Shown here piece after piece: positions 7,979 through 13,564 of a stretch of DNA of 64,000 nt; position 1 is the stretch's first letter; each line of letters opens with the position of its first letter. Source of the stretch: Cardiobacteriaceae bacterium (GTDB taxonomy: Bacteria; Pseudomonadota; Gammaproteobacteria; Cardiobacteriales; Cardiobacteriaceae); assembly GCA_017484165.1 (NCBI GenBank), contig JAFUTP010000053.1, positions 1 through 64,000 of the forward strand, read 5' to 3'. A model generated the notes under the pieces. That model did no database searches. It was not told the origin of the DNA and saw only the letters and a program-made list of their open reading frames with translations. Both the position numbers and the translations under genes were made by a program.

Positions 7979-8096
7979 GGGGCATCTAAATTTTAGGTTA
8001 GTCCTATTTTTCACCTCGTCATCCTGAGCGCAGCGAAGGATCTGCTGATAGAGATTTTTCGCCTACGGCTCAAAATGACGATTTTTTAGCCAAGCA
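7979..8096 (+). mobile_element. MITE-like element, copy 2
   Basis: A 118-base copy with core palindrome 8017-8080. CCGTA direct repeats at 7974-7978 and 8097-8101 fit a 5 bp target duplication. It separates the small-gene cassette from the pilY1 promoter region. Confidence 0.85.
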
Positions 8097-8175: not shown

Positions 8176-8193
8176 AAAAAAAAAAAAAAAAAA
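8176..8193 (+). repeat. run of 18 A upstream of pilY1
   Basis: An uninterrupted A tract ending four bases before a possible -35 element, that is, where an UP element would lie. Its length is expected to vary by slippage. Any effect on pilY1 expression is inference. Confidence 0.8.
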
Positions 8194-8226: not shown

Positions 8227-8311
8227 AACTTTTAGCTCATATTTGATAAAAACCATCCCGAGTTTTTTGAAAGCTTATTTTTCCATTCACATTGCAATAA
8301 GGAACATCGTT

Positions 8312-11300
8312 ATGAACAGATTTACCCCCCCCCCCCAAGCTCGTGTTTCTTCCCGTAAAACGCATCTAAACGCAAATAAACAGGGATTTGAACGCCCTGC
8401 AATCTCATTTTTAACCGCCGCAGTTGTTTCTGCTCTTGCCGCAAATGCAAATGCCGCGGTTCCGCAAAAATCTCCTTTCGCTGCCGTCCCCTCATATCTC
8501 GAAACGCAGCAAAATAAAAGCTACATGGAAGTAGCTACTTTCGAACGCAAAACTGTTACAACTAGAACTGATACAGAAACGAGAGATGTTAATTACGAAA
8601 GAAAATCGACAGAAACCACAACAACTAAAAACGCTTCTGGCTATTACGAATATGTCATCACAGTTCCACAAACCAAAACTTTCACCAGAACCAAAACTGA
8701 TGTAACTGCCTCATCTACGGTAAAACCACGGATTATGTTGGTGCTTGATGATTCAGGCTCGATGGAAACAGAAGGTGGAGTTCCCAATCGTCTTACTAGT
8801 TTGAAGAATGTTCTTAAAAAACTGATGACGGATGAGAAGTATGATAAAACCATTCTTTGGAATGCTTTTACACTCAATAGTTCTGGCGGCGGACAATACA
8901 CAAAAGGTTACGGCAATGGTCCTGTTAAATATCCGATGTTTAAAGAATTTACTAACGGTAAAAATATGTATGACAACGGCATAGCTCATGTCGGGACATC
9001 AGTATGGAAAGGTTCATCTGCAACTCCAACTACGATTTCATTCGTTTATGCCGCAAATGAGTTATTTCGCAACATCAATTACAAATGTCAAAACAATTTC
9101 ATAATCCTGCTCTCGGACGGTGATACCAACTTTGATACTTATCAAACGGGTGGGTATGGATATAACTCTTACTACACCACTGAAACTTCCATTGCTGCTT
9201 GGGAAATTCCTGCTCTGCGCACAATCTATGAATTAAGCGATGGAGCTGCAACAAGACATCTGCCCATCGCATATAGCTATGCTCTACCAACATACACCGC
9301 TGCTTGGCACGCTATGGGAACGGGCTGTGCTTCTAGTCCTCAAAAAAGCGGACCATGGTGCAGAAAGGATAAAACTTACCACGCATTTACAACAAGTGAA
9401 ACATCTTCTTGCAATGGACTTGTAACTGGTAAGGGGACAGACTGGAAACGCTTTGACCATCACTGCGTAAATAGCAGCAACTGGAACGGTGTATATAACG
9501 GTATCGAATACTTCACCGATAAGCTCTATAACAAAGACTTAAAACCTGATTCAGAAAGAGATGCAGAAGGTAATGCTTTCACAGGCAAGCAAAATATTCA
9601 AACTTTCACTATCGGTTACGGTAACGATATGTCGGCACAAGGTGAGGCTTATGCAATCCTTGGTAGCCGCGTTGATGACAAATTCAAAAATAAAAATCCA
9701 GATAAAAGAAAGGTAACGACTAAACCTAAACGGAACGACGATGACGGTTATGGCTATTACCCAGAAACTGGCTACTACTGGATAGACGACGGACAGAAAG
9801 ATACTCAACTACAAGAAGCTTTCACCGAAATCTTCGACAATGTTGTTTCCAGCACGGTTAATATCTCTGAAACCAGTTCTAACATTAGTGATACTAATGC
9901 AAGCATAAGCCCAGGAAATCCAACAACTACAAGCAGTTCTCATACAAATACCACTACTGGAAAACCAGAAACCAATACGAGTACAGGCGCAACAACTTCC
10001 AAATGTGATGATGAGAAAAATAAGGACTTGCCAGAATGTAAAGGAACTGTATCGCTCGGTAAAGAAAGTACTCCTCACTACGAAACTACGCCTCTTGGAA
10101 CAAGTGCTACCGAAGACCTTTACACCACATCAGTAGCATCGCCTGTAAATATTTCTAGCTTCAATCTTGATGTGTCGATGTATCCCGATTTAACTCCTAG
10201 CGAGCCGATTACGGATAAAACCAGCAGTTCCGAACTCGGTGCTTATGGTATGGAAATGACGCTTGGCATCAACACAGGCAACTGGGCATCATTTTTTAGC
10301 TTCCACCCAATTTTCAGAATCAATGTTCCAGAAGGAAAATCGGTTGCAACGGTCATTGACACCACAAAATACAACTGTAATGTGTCAGGCACTTCGGAAA
10401 AAGCAATCACCAGCTATGTCTGTTCTTACAACAACGATGACTACTTCACACCGAAGTTTTTATCGCAAAGACCTGTCTTGATGACGCTTCCTACTGACAA
10501 CGAAAAACGCTCATTTGGTTTGACGGCACAAGGATTTGCAGAATTCGGTTTAACTGAAAACGGTAAAGCTAACAACCAGGCGCACTCAATCTATAAAAAC
10601 TTCGGTTTTGAAGACGCACAGCTGCAAGAATTCAACACAGGATTTTTCCCGTGGCTCTTGCGCGATGGCACCGTAACCGACGAGCAAATTGAAGAAAATG
10701 TTGCCAAGCTTAATCTTGCTGAACGGGGAGTTAGCAAATATCGTAACCGTCTTGAAATCGCTAAAAGTGGAACAAAAGTTCCTGAAATTGAGCGTCAAAT
10801 GGGAGATGTTATCGATGCAACTCCGATAAATATTCCGTCCTATGTGCCAATCGCTGATACCGCAGAAGAACAAAAAGAATTAGAGGCAGGTCGCGACCGT
10901 GCGCAATATTTGCTGGTTGGTTCTAATGATGGAATGCTTTACAGCTATAAACGGGCAAATTCCACTACTAATCCATACGAGCTTAAATTTAACTATCTGC
11001 CATACAAAATGCCACGCGAACGCTACCGTCCAAATCGCGCCGCAGATATGACTTATTTGGAAACATTGGGAAGTGTTTTGCCAGTATCAATTGCATCATC
11101 TGACTACGGCACTGGCGCAAATGAGCATATTTACGGCATCAACGGTCAATTAAACCAAATCAGAACGGCAACTCTTACCAAAGCTGCAACTGGTGATAAA
11201 CAACTGCGCGAACGCCTCAATGTGGTAACTGGCACAATGGGACAAGGCGGACGAGGTGTGTTCTCACTACTTGCGCTCGGTGTTAGTCCGAAAGACAATT

Positions 11301-13564
11301 CAAGCAGAGTTGGCTTTGACAATGAACTCACCAAAGGCGGTAACTGGGAGCAATACAACGACACTGCTTCCAAAGAAGTTGGCACTGTACCGACGGATAC
11401 TTCTATCAATCTCGGATATACGGTAAATACCGCAGTTGTATCTAAAACCGCTACCAAATGGACGGATAAAAAATGTGCTGATGAAAAATCGTCAGATGAT
11501 GACACAACTGCAATTGCTTCCTGCTCAACTTACGAAACTATGAGTATGCCGAAAGCAGATGTTTTGGATTCAGAAATCCGCTACACAACTTTCGTAGCAA
11601 ATGGCTTCCCGACTGGCGGTAAAGATAACTCTTCCGAACTCATCATCGGTCGCGACAATCACGACAGCGCACCGACGCTTTATATTTTCGATGCACTCGG
11701 TCTTGATTTCAAAATTGCCGATAGAAGTTCTAGTGTAGATTACGCCAGAAACGCATCCAGCAAGGCAGGACAACTCATTAAGAAAATCAGCGTACCAGAT
11801 GCCAGCACTAATCCGTATAACATCAACACACTCGGCTCACCAACGGTAGTTGATATTGACTTCGACGGTATTGCCGATGTTGTTTATGCAGGGGATTATT
11901 CAGGCAATTTGTGGCGTTTTGATTTACGCGGAAAAGTTTCTGACTGGGGAGCAATAAAACTCTTCCAAGGCAACTCCGAGCGTCCAATTACCGCTGCTCC
12001 TGCCGTTTATCGCATTGACACCAAACACTTAAACGGTGAGCAATATATGGTTGCTTTCGGAACAGGCTCTGATGTTTATAAAGAAGACCGTGAATCAACC
12101 CAACCACAGCAAAGAATTTACGGTATCCGTGATGACTTACGCGTGCGTCCAAAAGTTGCGACAACTGGCAGTGATGATGGCGGCGTGTCTTTCACCCTTG
12201 GTGGTTCTTCATCTGATACATCAAACTCACCATCAGGTGCAATCACAATCAAATATCCACTTACAGATGACAAGCTAGTAGGCAGAAACTTTGTTGACCA
12301 ATACCGTAACGGTCATTTGGAAAGATACGCAGAACAAGAAGCATCAACTGTCGGTTTCAACGACGATGGAAACTATGCAGGTTACGGCTGGTATGTCAAT
12401 TTAAATGCTGGTATTCCAGGCGAAAAATCTAGTGAAAGAGTAATTGCAAAACCTTCTCTGCTCACTCGCGCGGTATTCTTCACCTCTCGTGCCTACGATT
12501 TATCTAGCACCAGCACAATTCATTCAGAAATCATCCCAACACAAGTAATAGACAGCCAGGAAGGTGACTGGGAAATAACAAAGGAGCACGACTGGGAAGA
12601 TGTCGGCGAACGAACAGACTATAAGAAGACAGAAGGAGAAACTAGCAAACAAGGTGGAACAGGTGGCAGCGGCAATGGTGATGGACTAAATGAAGCAGAG
12701 CAAACTTCCATTGCCCAAACTCTTCAAGGAGAGGAAGGTTGCGACAAAAAACAATGGATAGATGAAACTACTGGTTACACATATGTCGTCGAGTGTCCTA
12801 CTTGGGGAGATGCTACTCTGACAGATGACGATTGGAAACTCGTGCAAAAAGGAGTTCCGCAAGCTGCAACTGGCAAAGAAGGCGAAGAAAGCTGTAATGC
12901 AGGTGCAGGTGTGGCAGATATCTATCAAGCTACTACACAAGTAGGTCGTGAGAAGAAAATCACAGTACAAGTGCCATTTGGCGGTGCTAGCGATTTGGTT
13001 GAAACACAAGAATGGATTGAAAACTGGATACAGAAGCAAGAACGGAAGGTTGATTACTCAAAAACTGATGTAAAAACATTCCAAACTCAAACCAACTTTG
13101 AAGAAGAAAGTAAAGGCGCAGTTGAAGGCGAAACTTGGTTCTTCGCGGTAGATATTCTTACGGGTGGTAACCTGCAATCTAACGGTGTAAAAATCGTTCC
13201 TGATTACTCAACCGAGGAATATGACGAAAAGGATGAGACATTCAGCAAAATTATCGGTATCCACTTCGACACCATTACTTCCGCTGCGGTTATTCAGTCG
13301 TTGTCAAAATTGCTTGATGAGGACTTGGCTATCACTGAAAATGGCGAGTACAGAGGTGGCGATGATCAAGATATGAAACTTGGCAAAGGTTCAGATAACT
13401 TCTTAACCGAACAATTCCAAGATAACCGCTGTGTGAAACACGCAGACTATATAGCTTTGTTAAACGCAAATCCAGAACTCAAAAAAGTTTCAATTCTGCC
13501 TCCGCTATGCCACGGTGTATTTATGCGGACATCATTGCGTGAAATTCGCGGAATTTCTAAATAA
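8312..13564 (+). CDS. pilY1: PilY1/PilC-type type IV pilus biogenesis factor and adhesin
   Basis: A large exported protein of about 1750 residues. The ATG at 8312 is chosen because AATAAGGA precedes it and a signal sequence follows (ISFLTAAVVSALAANANAA). A von Willebrand A-like domain has a MIDAS motif DDSGSM starting at Asp146. A Ser/Thr/Asn-rich linker follows (about residues 515-565) with several N-X-S/T sequons. The C-terminal half has the PilY1 beta-propeller signature, including MGQGGRGVFSLLAL and a calcium-loop-like DIDFDGIAD at about 1181-1189. PilY1/PilC proteins promote pilus extension and host adhesion. The gene is longer than most family members and stands alone, without minor pilin genes. 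A run of 12 C lies within codons 5-9. Confidence 0.93.
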   Translation: MNRFTPPPQARVSSRKTHLNANKQGFERPAISFLTAAVVSALAANANAAVPQKSPFAAVPSYLETQQNKSYMEVATFERKTVTTRTDTETRDVNYERKSTETTTTKNASGYYEYVITVPQTKTFTRTKTDVTASSTVKPRIMLVLDDSGSMETEGGVPNRLTSLKNVLKKLMTDEKYDKTILWNAFTLNSSGGGQYTKGYGNGPVKYPMFKEFTNGKNMYDNGIAHVGTSVWKGSSATPTTISFVYAANELFRNINYKCQNNFIILLSDGDTNFDTYQTGGYGYNSYYTTETSIAAWEIPALRTIYELSDGAATRHLPIAYSYALPTYTAAWHAMGTGCASSPQKSGPWCRKDKTYHAFTTSETSSCNGLVTGKGTDWKRFDHHCVNSSNWNGVYNGIEYFTDKLYNKDLKPDSERDAEGNAFTGKQNIQTFTIGYGNDMSAQGEAYAILGSRVDDKFKNKNPDKRKVTTKPKRNDDDGYGYYPETGYYWIDDGQKDTQLQEAFTEIFDNVVSSTVNISETSSNISDTNASISPGNPTTTSSSHTNTTTGKPETNTSTGATTSKCDDEKNKDLPECKGTVSLGKESTPHYETTPLGTSATEDLYTTSVASPVNISSFNLDVSMYPDLTPSEPITDKTSSSELGAYGMEMTLGINTGNWASFFSFHPIFRINVPEGKSVATVIDTTKYNCNVSGTSEKAITSYVCSYNNDDYFTPKFLSQRPVLMTLPTDNEKRSFGLTAQGFAEFGLTENGKANNQAHSIYKNFGFEDAQLQEFNTGFFPWLLRDGTVTDEQIEENVAKLNLAERGVSKYRNRLEIAKSGTKVPEIERQMGDVIDATPINIPSYVPIADTAEEQKELEAGRDRAQYLLVGSNDGMLYSYKRANSTTNPYELKFNYLPYKMPRERYRPNRAADMTYLETLGSVLPVSIASSDYGTGANEHIYGINGQLNQIRTATLTKAATGDKQLRERLNVVTGTMGQGGRGVFSLLALGVSPKDNSSRVGFDNELTKGGNWEQYNDTASKEVGTVPTDTSINLGYTVNTAVVSKTATKWTDKKCADEKSSDDDTTAIASCSTYETMSMPKADVLDSEIRYTTFVANGFPTGGKDNSSELIIGRDNHDSAPTLYIFDALGLDFKIADRSSSVDYARNASSKAGQLIKKISVPDASTNPYNINTLGSPTVVDIDFDGIADVVYAGDYSGNLWRFDLRGKVSDWGAIKLFQGNSERPITAAPAVYRIDTKHLNGEQYMVAFGTGSDVYKEDRESTQPQQRIYGIRDDLRVRPKVATTGSDDGGVSFTLGGSSSDTSNSPSGAITIKYPLTDDKLVGRNFVDQYRNGHLERYAEQEASTVGFNDDGNYAGYGWYVNLNAGIPGEKSSERVIAKPSLLTRAVFFTSRAYDLSSTSTIHSEIIPTQVIDSQEGDWEITKEHDWEDVGERTDYKKTEGETSKQGGTGGSGNGDGLNEAEQTSIAQTLQGEEGCDKKQWIDETTGYTYVVECPTWGDATLTDDDWKLVQKGVPQAATGKEGEESCNAGAGVADIYQATTQVGREKKITVQVPFGGASDLVETQEWIENWIQKQERKVDYSKTDVKTFQTQTNFEEESKGAVEGETWFFAVDILTGGNLQSNGVKIVPDYSTEEYDEKDETFSKIIGIHFDTITSAAVIQSLSKLLDEDLAITENGEYRGGDDQDMKLGKGSDNFLTEQFQDNRCVKHADYIALLNANPELKKVSILPPLCHGVFMRTSLREIRGISK
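8325..8336 (+). repeat. run of 12 C inside the pilY1 signal-peptide region
   Basis: The tract encodes Thr-Pro-Pro-Pro, five codons after the ATG. With 13 C the frame stops at a TAA after 15 codons, and with 11 C it stops after 18 codons, so gain or loss of one base abolishes the full product. This is the arrangement expected of a contingency gene. Confidence 0.9.

Follow-up and report, generated by a model that had tools for sequence, protein, structure and literature searches.

A run of cytosines lies just inside the start codon of pilY1 (8312-13564, forward strand) in the window, the 64,000-nucleotide stretch of DNA analysed here, and raises the question of whether changes in its length switch the production of a type IV pilus protein, as the initial annotation had proposed. 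Recomputation returned exactly the features on which that proposal was built, namely 12 C at 8325-8336 of the forward strand, in frame with the ATG at 8312, and an open-reading frame reaching 13564 and encoding 1750 amino acids, the gene being on as assembled. The tract begins in codon 5 and spans codons 5-9. The frameshifted products also came out with the same lengths, 11 C giving 18 amino acids before a TAA and 13 C giving 15, and among simulated tract lengths only 9, 12 or 15 C yielded a product of ~1750 amino acids. A homopolymer of at least nine bases sited where a one-base change abolishes the product is one mark of a simple-sequence contingency locus, and C12 is such a homopolymer.

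The poly-C tract and the protein behind it

The product matched the Pfam T4P_PilY1 profile (PF05567) with an E-value of 1.5e-33 and 116.8 bits against a cut-off of 28.1, and the beta-propeller domain was recovered at 10802-12166 in two matched stretches (10802-11464 and 11762-12166, forward strand). The sequence of the PilY1 crystal structure, PDB 3HX6, also matched it (E 8.7e-10), and the Neisseria PilC equivalog NF040838 gave 128.7 bits, below its curated cut-off of 350, indicating a PilY1-family relative that does not have the status of a Neisseria-type PilC. On the same strand, the sequence AAGGA at 8299-8303, 8 nt 5′ of the ATG, is a likely ribosome-binding site, a signal peptide was called by eye from its hydrophobic core (AISFLTAAVVSALAA, 8399-8443), and the MIDAS-type motif DDSGSM at 8747-8764 suggests a vWA-like N-terminal domain, named from this motif in a protein that gave no match to Pfam vWA. 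Motifs of this type (DxSxS) were found in 15 of the 19 pilY1 genes of this species and its sister species.

Because no in-frame ATG, GTG or TTG separates the tract from the hydrophobic core in the window gene, and no start in another frame reads into the tract from upstream, the tract must be translated for export. This disfavours a start codon downstream of the tract, which had been named at the outset as a finding that would overturn the switch. Slipped-strand mispairing in C12, within the n-region of the signal peptide, would leave the gene on at 9, 12 or 15 C and off at other lengths, probably with a high rate of slippage. Alternatively, slippage by RNA polymerase or ribosomal frameshifting could supply some full-length protein at any length, with the tract tuning expression rather than switching it. 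RNA polymerase may indeed slip on long homopolymers. In Helicobacter pylori sabA, however, tract lengths in cDNA were those of the genome (PMC2715451), although the repeat there is a CT repeat, and we regard this alternative as unlikely.

The run at 8325-8336 is the sole C run of at least nine bases on either strand of the window, where 0.07 were expected from shuffled sequences. A pattern search of the 1.8-Mb host genome, to which the window belongs, found six C/G runs of this length in all, and two of the six fall within the first 60 nt of the nine pilY1 genes, against a rough Poisson expectation of 0.0018. Only 15% of the proline codons in the large genes of the window are CCC, so three consecutive CCC codons are unlikely to arise from amino-acid need alone, and the C12 tract is the product of neither chance nor amino-acid constraint. 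Selection for a Pro-Pro-Pro peptide of stable length, acting through ribosome pausing or signal-peptide function, would account for the three or four prolines near the start in every frame that is on. This explanation is nevertheless quite unlikely, given that every proline of the tract is encoded by this uncommon codon and that two of the related alleles described below are out of frame as assembled.

PilY1 paralogues and coding tracts in two species

A profile search identified nine PF05567 genes in the host genome and ten in a sister species (G001), the closest named relative, represented by the reticulum MAG RGIG9182 from water deer and likewise a member of the Cardiobacteriaceae, while one or two is the usual number elsewhere in the family. 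Each species is covered by one genome, both fragmentary (77 and about 60 contigs). Nine reciprocal orthologue pairs were found between the two species. In a quick tree with SH-aLRT support only, in which long branches were flagged, all genes other than the pairs C27/C15 and C28/C46 (genes are given by contig, host before sister) fell into one group with a support of 94, adjoining the low-copy genes of other Cardiobacteriaceae. This topology is consistent with an expansion of pilY1 within the genus. The host genome also encodes PilQ and PilB, both above curated cut-offs. A regular-expression search for prepilin motifs returned no ORF in the neighbourhood of the nine host genes, which therefore resemble orphans more than parts of minor-pilin operons. 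One paralogue, C27, has an in-frame TGA (L030:3124-3126) about 140 codons into the gene where its orthologue has leucine, probably a nonsense mutation in a broken copy.

Coding poly-C tracts starting at codons 4-6 were present in five genes from three orthologue groups in the two species. The orthologue of the window gene (G001_C17, 51% amino-acid identity) has 14 C and is out of frame, where 13 or 16 would fit; the same tract is found at the same position in RGIG9182 contig JAGBJT010000025.1. The host paralogue G000_C63 (C10) and the sister gene G001_C9 (C13) are in frame, and G001_C61 (C9) is out of frame, where 7 or 10 would fit. The lengths thus differ between species in both pairs, C12/C14 and C10/C13, and a tract at the same place with a different length in a relative is a second mark of a contingency locus. 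Retention of the tract at the same codons in so divergent an orthologue supports the initial annotation in its view that a switch like that of Neisseria exists here. The mixture of in-frame and out-of-frame alleles fits a switch, although one-base assembly errors could mimic it, and single on or off calls are soft since homopolymer length in fragmentary assemblies may be wrong by one. The broader possibility that assembly error has altered the length of a tract that is really shorter or fixed gains from the fragmentation of both genomes and the proneness of long homopolymers to error, yet it is very unlikely, because long C tracts occupy the same codons in five genes from two independent assemblies and one-base errors could not make a tract where relatives lack one.

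No tract was found in eight pilY1 genes from other Cardiobacteriaceae genera, a set from which the G006 and G024 loci were excluded because the longest ORF at each did not represent a clearly intact pilY1. At G006:C1:62793-63813, the pilY1 gene of one of these genera appears broken, with two TAA codons within the matched stretch. On the quick tree, the five poly-C genes require two changes, for example a gain together with a loss in C76/C5. The intervening genes without a tract speak against descent of the tract from an ancestor shared with Neisseria. Independent origin is simpler given those eight genes, and the likeness to the pilC tract is probably convergent.

A/T tracts upstream of pilY1 genes

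The window gene bears a second tract, missed in the initial annotation, of 18 A at 8176-8193 on the forward strand with its 5′ end 136 bp before the ATG, so that C12 in the coding region is combined with A18 upstream. A15 lies at the same -136 position in its orthologue. Most paralogues have A/T runs of 15-19 bases some 90-180 bp 5′ of the ATG: in the host C3 (T17), C27 (A17), C76 (A19), C56 (A16) and C17 (A16), and in the sister species C29a (T15), C5 (A19), C29b (A18), C25 (A15), C17 (A15) and C46 (T16). The host gene C63 has an interrupted A11, and no upstream A/T tract was found at host C28 and C33 or at sister C9, C15 and C36. A T17 before the sister gene G001_C61 resembles a terminator tail and was excluded from the count. 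Measured from the ATG, the tract begins 136-141 bp upstream in eight of these genes and 92-179 bp upstream in the others.

Tract length differs in five orthologue pairs (A18/A15, T17/T15, A16/A18, A16/A15 and T5/T16) and is unchanged in one (A19/A19). Alignments of C56/C29b, C17/C25, C3/C29a and C28/C46 (T5 to T16) showed orthologous flanks with the tract as the length difference; conservation of the flanks is poor for the window gene and its orthologue. The host genome contains about 25 A/T runs of at least 14 bases, six of them within 400 bp 5′ of a pilY1 gene. Roughly 0.05 would be expected there if runs were placed at random across the genome, and because most of these runs are intergenic, the real excess is less than this figure suggests but remains large.

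A search around A18 gave no sigma-70 consensus promoter. A18 was also rejected as a terminator, since it is the coding strand that carries the A residues and no hairpin of the terminator type was detected. By analogy with two other genes, the A/T tracts may lie within promoters and act on them. In H. pylori sabA, a promoter poly-T of 13-19 bases is combined with a CT repeat at the 5′ end of the coding sequence (PMC2715451), and in nspA a single A of the promoter tract alters expression, in a study that saw no sign of nspA being phase-variable (PMC6389960). A change in the length of A18 about 136 bp before the start codon would then probably alter transcription.

Other elements were seen near these tracts. 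An interspersed repeat, CGTCATCCTGAGCGCAGCGAAGGATCTGC, and its variants have six copies in the window, one of them at 8017-8045, about 130 bp before A18, and a further copy seems to have entered the leader of a secreted-protein gene at L038 without disturbing the frame. The palindrome GACAA-N3-TTGTC has 39 sites in the host genome (reversed control, 1), often before genes (for example L034:518-530 and G000:C3:9382 and 9409), and precedes five pilY1 genes at a distance of no more than 250 bp. Its reading as a pilY1-specific operator is weakened by the many housekeeping genes with the same palindrome upstream. Another element upstream of pilY1 (L072, L071) is one that we take to resemble the Neisseria Correia repeat; matches to a Correia-like core number 105 in the sister species and 9 in the host genome.

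Proposed alternative pilus tips and other phase-variable candidates

In three orthologue pairs, conservation over the first 500-600 columns of the alignment is much lower than over the remainder. Identity in the C76/C5 pair is 27-54% in the head and mostly >80% in the rest, in C3/C29a 30-45% and mostly 60-87%, and in the window pair mostly 34-50% in the head and 56-81% in the propeller region. This is the pattern that adhesins diversifying at the tip of a shared pilus base would show.

Taken with the tracts, these observations make it quite probable that the genus maintains, under local hypermutation, its own repertoire of PilY1/PilC proteins as alternatives for the tip of the type IV pilus. 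With an A/T tract at most paralogues and a C tract in three groups, cells of one population would differ in their pilus tips, provided that the PilY1 proteins are located at pilus tips and bind different targets, as we infer. The fuller proposal, a combinatorial phase-variable repertoire of at least nine tip adhesins in an animal-associated lineage, several with diverging heads, most with an A/T tract and a subset with poly-C in addition, arisen independently of Neisseria and giving clonal cells different tips, is favoured with reserve. The initial annotation had inferred on/off control of pilus-mediated adhesion; a switch is supported, though on/off adhesion is too simple an outcome as eight other PilY1 proteins can stay on.

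The Neisseria pilC genes are an apt analogy. The pilC1 and pilC2 genes share with the present gene the protein family, a homopolymer in the region coding for the signal peptide and frameshifting between on and off, in their case by slipped-strand mispairing (PMC13190605). The differences are that the tract here is poly-C (proline) and there poly-G, that nine to ten paralogues here compare with one or two there, and that upstream A/T tracts are added here, in a distant lineage with untracted relatives between. A survey of the Neisseria genus found phase-variable pilC confined to pathogenic species (PMC5953494). Like the window gene, sabA is an adhesin gene with a promoter and a 5′ coding tract, though the adhesin is unrelated and its coding repeat is not a homopolymer. 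Several PilY1 proteins, with interchangeable pilus tips proposed, are described for myxobacteria in the passages of PMC13190605 consulted, which report no homopolymer switch for them.

A promoter poly-A tract for each gene of a surface-protein family is known from the Vlp system of Mycoplasma hyorhinis, in contrast a set of clustered lipoprotein genes of a wall-less bacterium without a coding tract of this kind. For PilY1/PilC, tract switching was known before in disease-causing Neisseria only, in one or two genes, and we found no report in the open-access literature of a PilY1 homopolymer switch outside Neisseria. What is new is that a Cardiobacterium relative of rumen type has at least nine pilus-tip genes, most with long single-base runs. 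If a system larger than that of Neisseria, two-layered and independent in origin, does exist in this probably commensal lineage of the rumen, stochastic tip choice would be a more general strategy on epithelium, and the nine orthologue pairs offer a natural comparison set for the targets of each PilY1 head and the tips used per cell. A report of Cardiobacteriaceae (Suttonella) associated with rumen epithelium (PMC5411454) fits such a niche for this species without proving it.

Further tracts from pattern searches support the view that this genome employs phase variation, since several lie in typical phase-variable classes. The host has G12 within a GT2-type glycosyltransferase gene and G9 in a GT25 LPS-type glycosyltransferase gene that has G10 in the sister species; one secreted-protein gene has C16 upstream, and a second has C9/C19 at its leader. 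A/T tracts are also present before two YadA-type adhesins and one TbpB/FHBP-like lipoprotein, and a sister protein with a YadA-like head, identified by eye from its repeat pattern, has C9 in its signal peptide. Not all runs fit, as some A/T runs of at least 14 bases are terminator tails or adjoin housekeeping genes. The poly-C leaders of the secreted proteins at L119:2074-3666 (MRFTPPPPPP, C19) and L038:8251-10305 (MRFPPP, C9) resemble that of PilY1, and a downstream ATG could be the true start. A T16 at L105:2478 lies just 5′ of an ORF that by eye looks like Cas9, between that ORF and a toxin-like gene.
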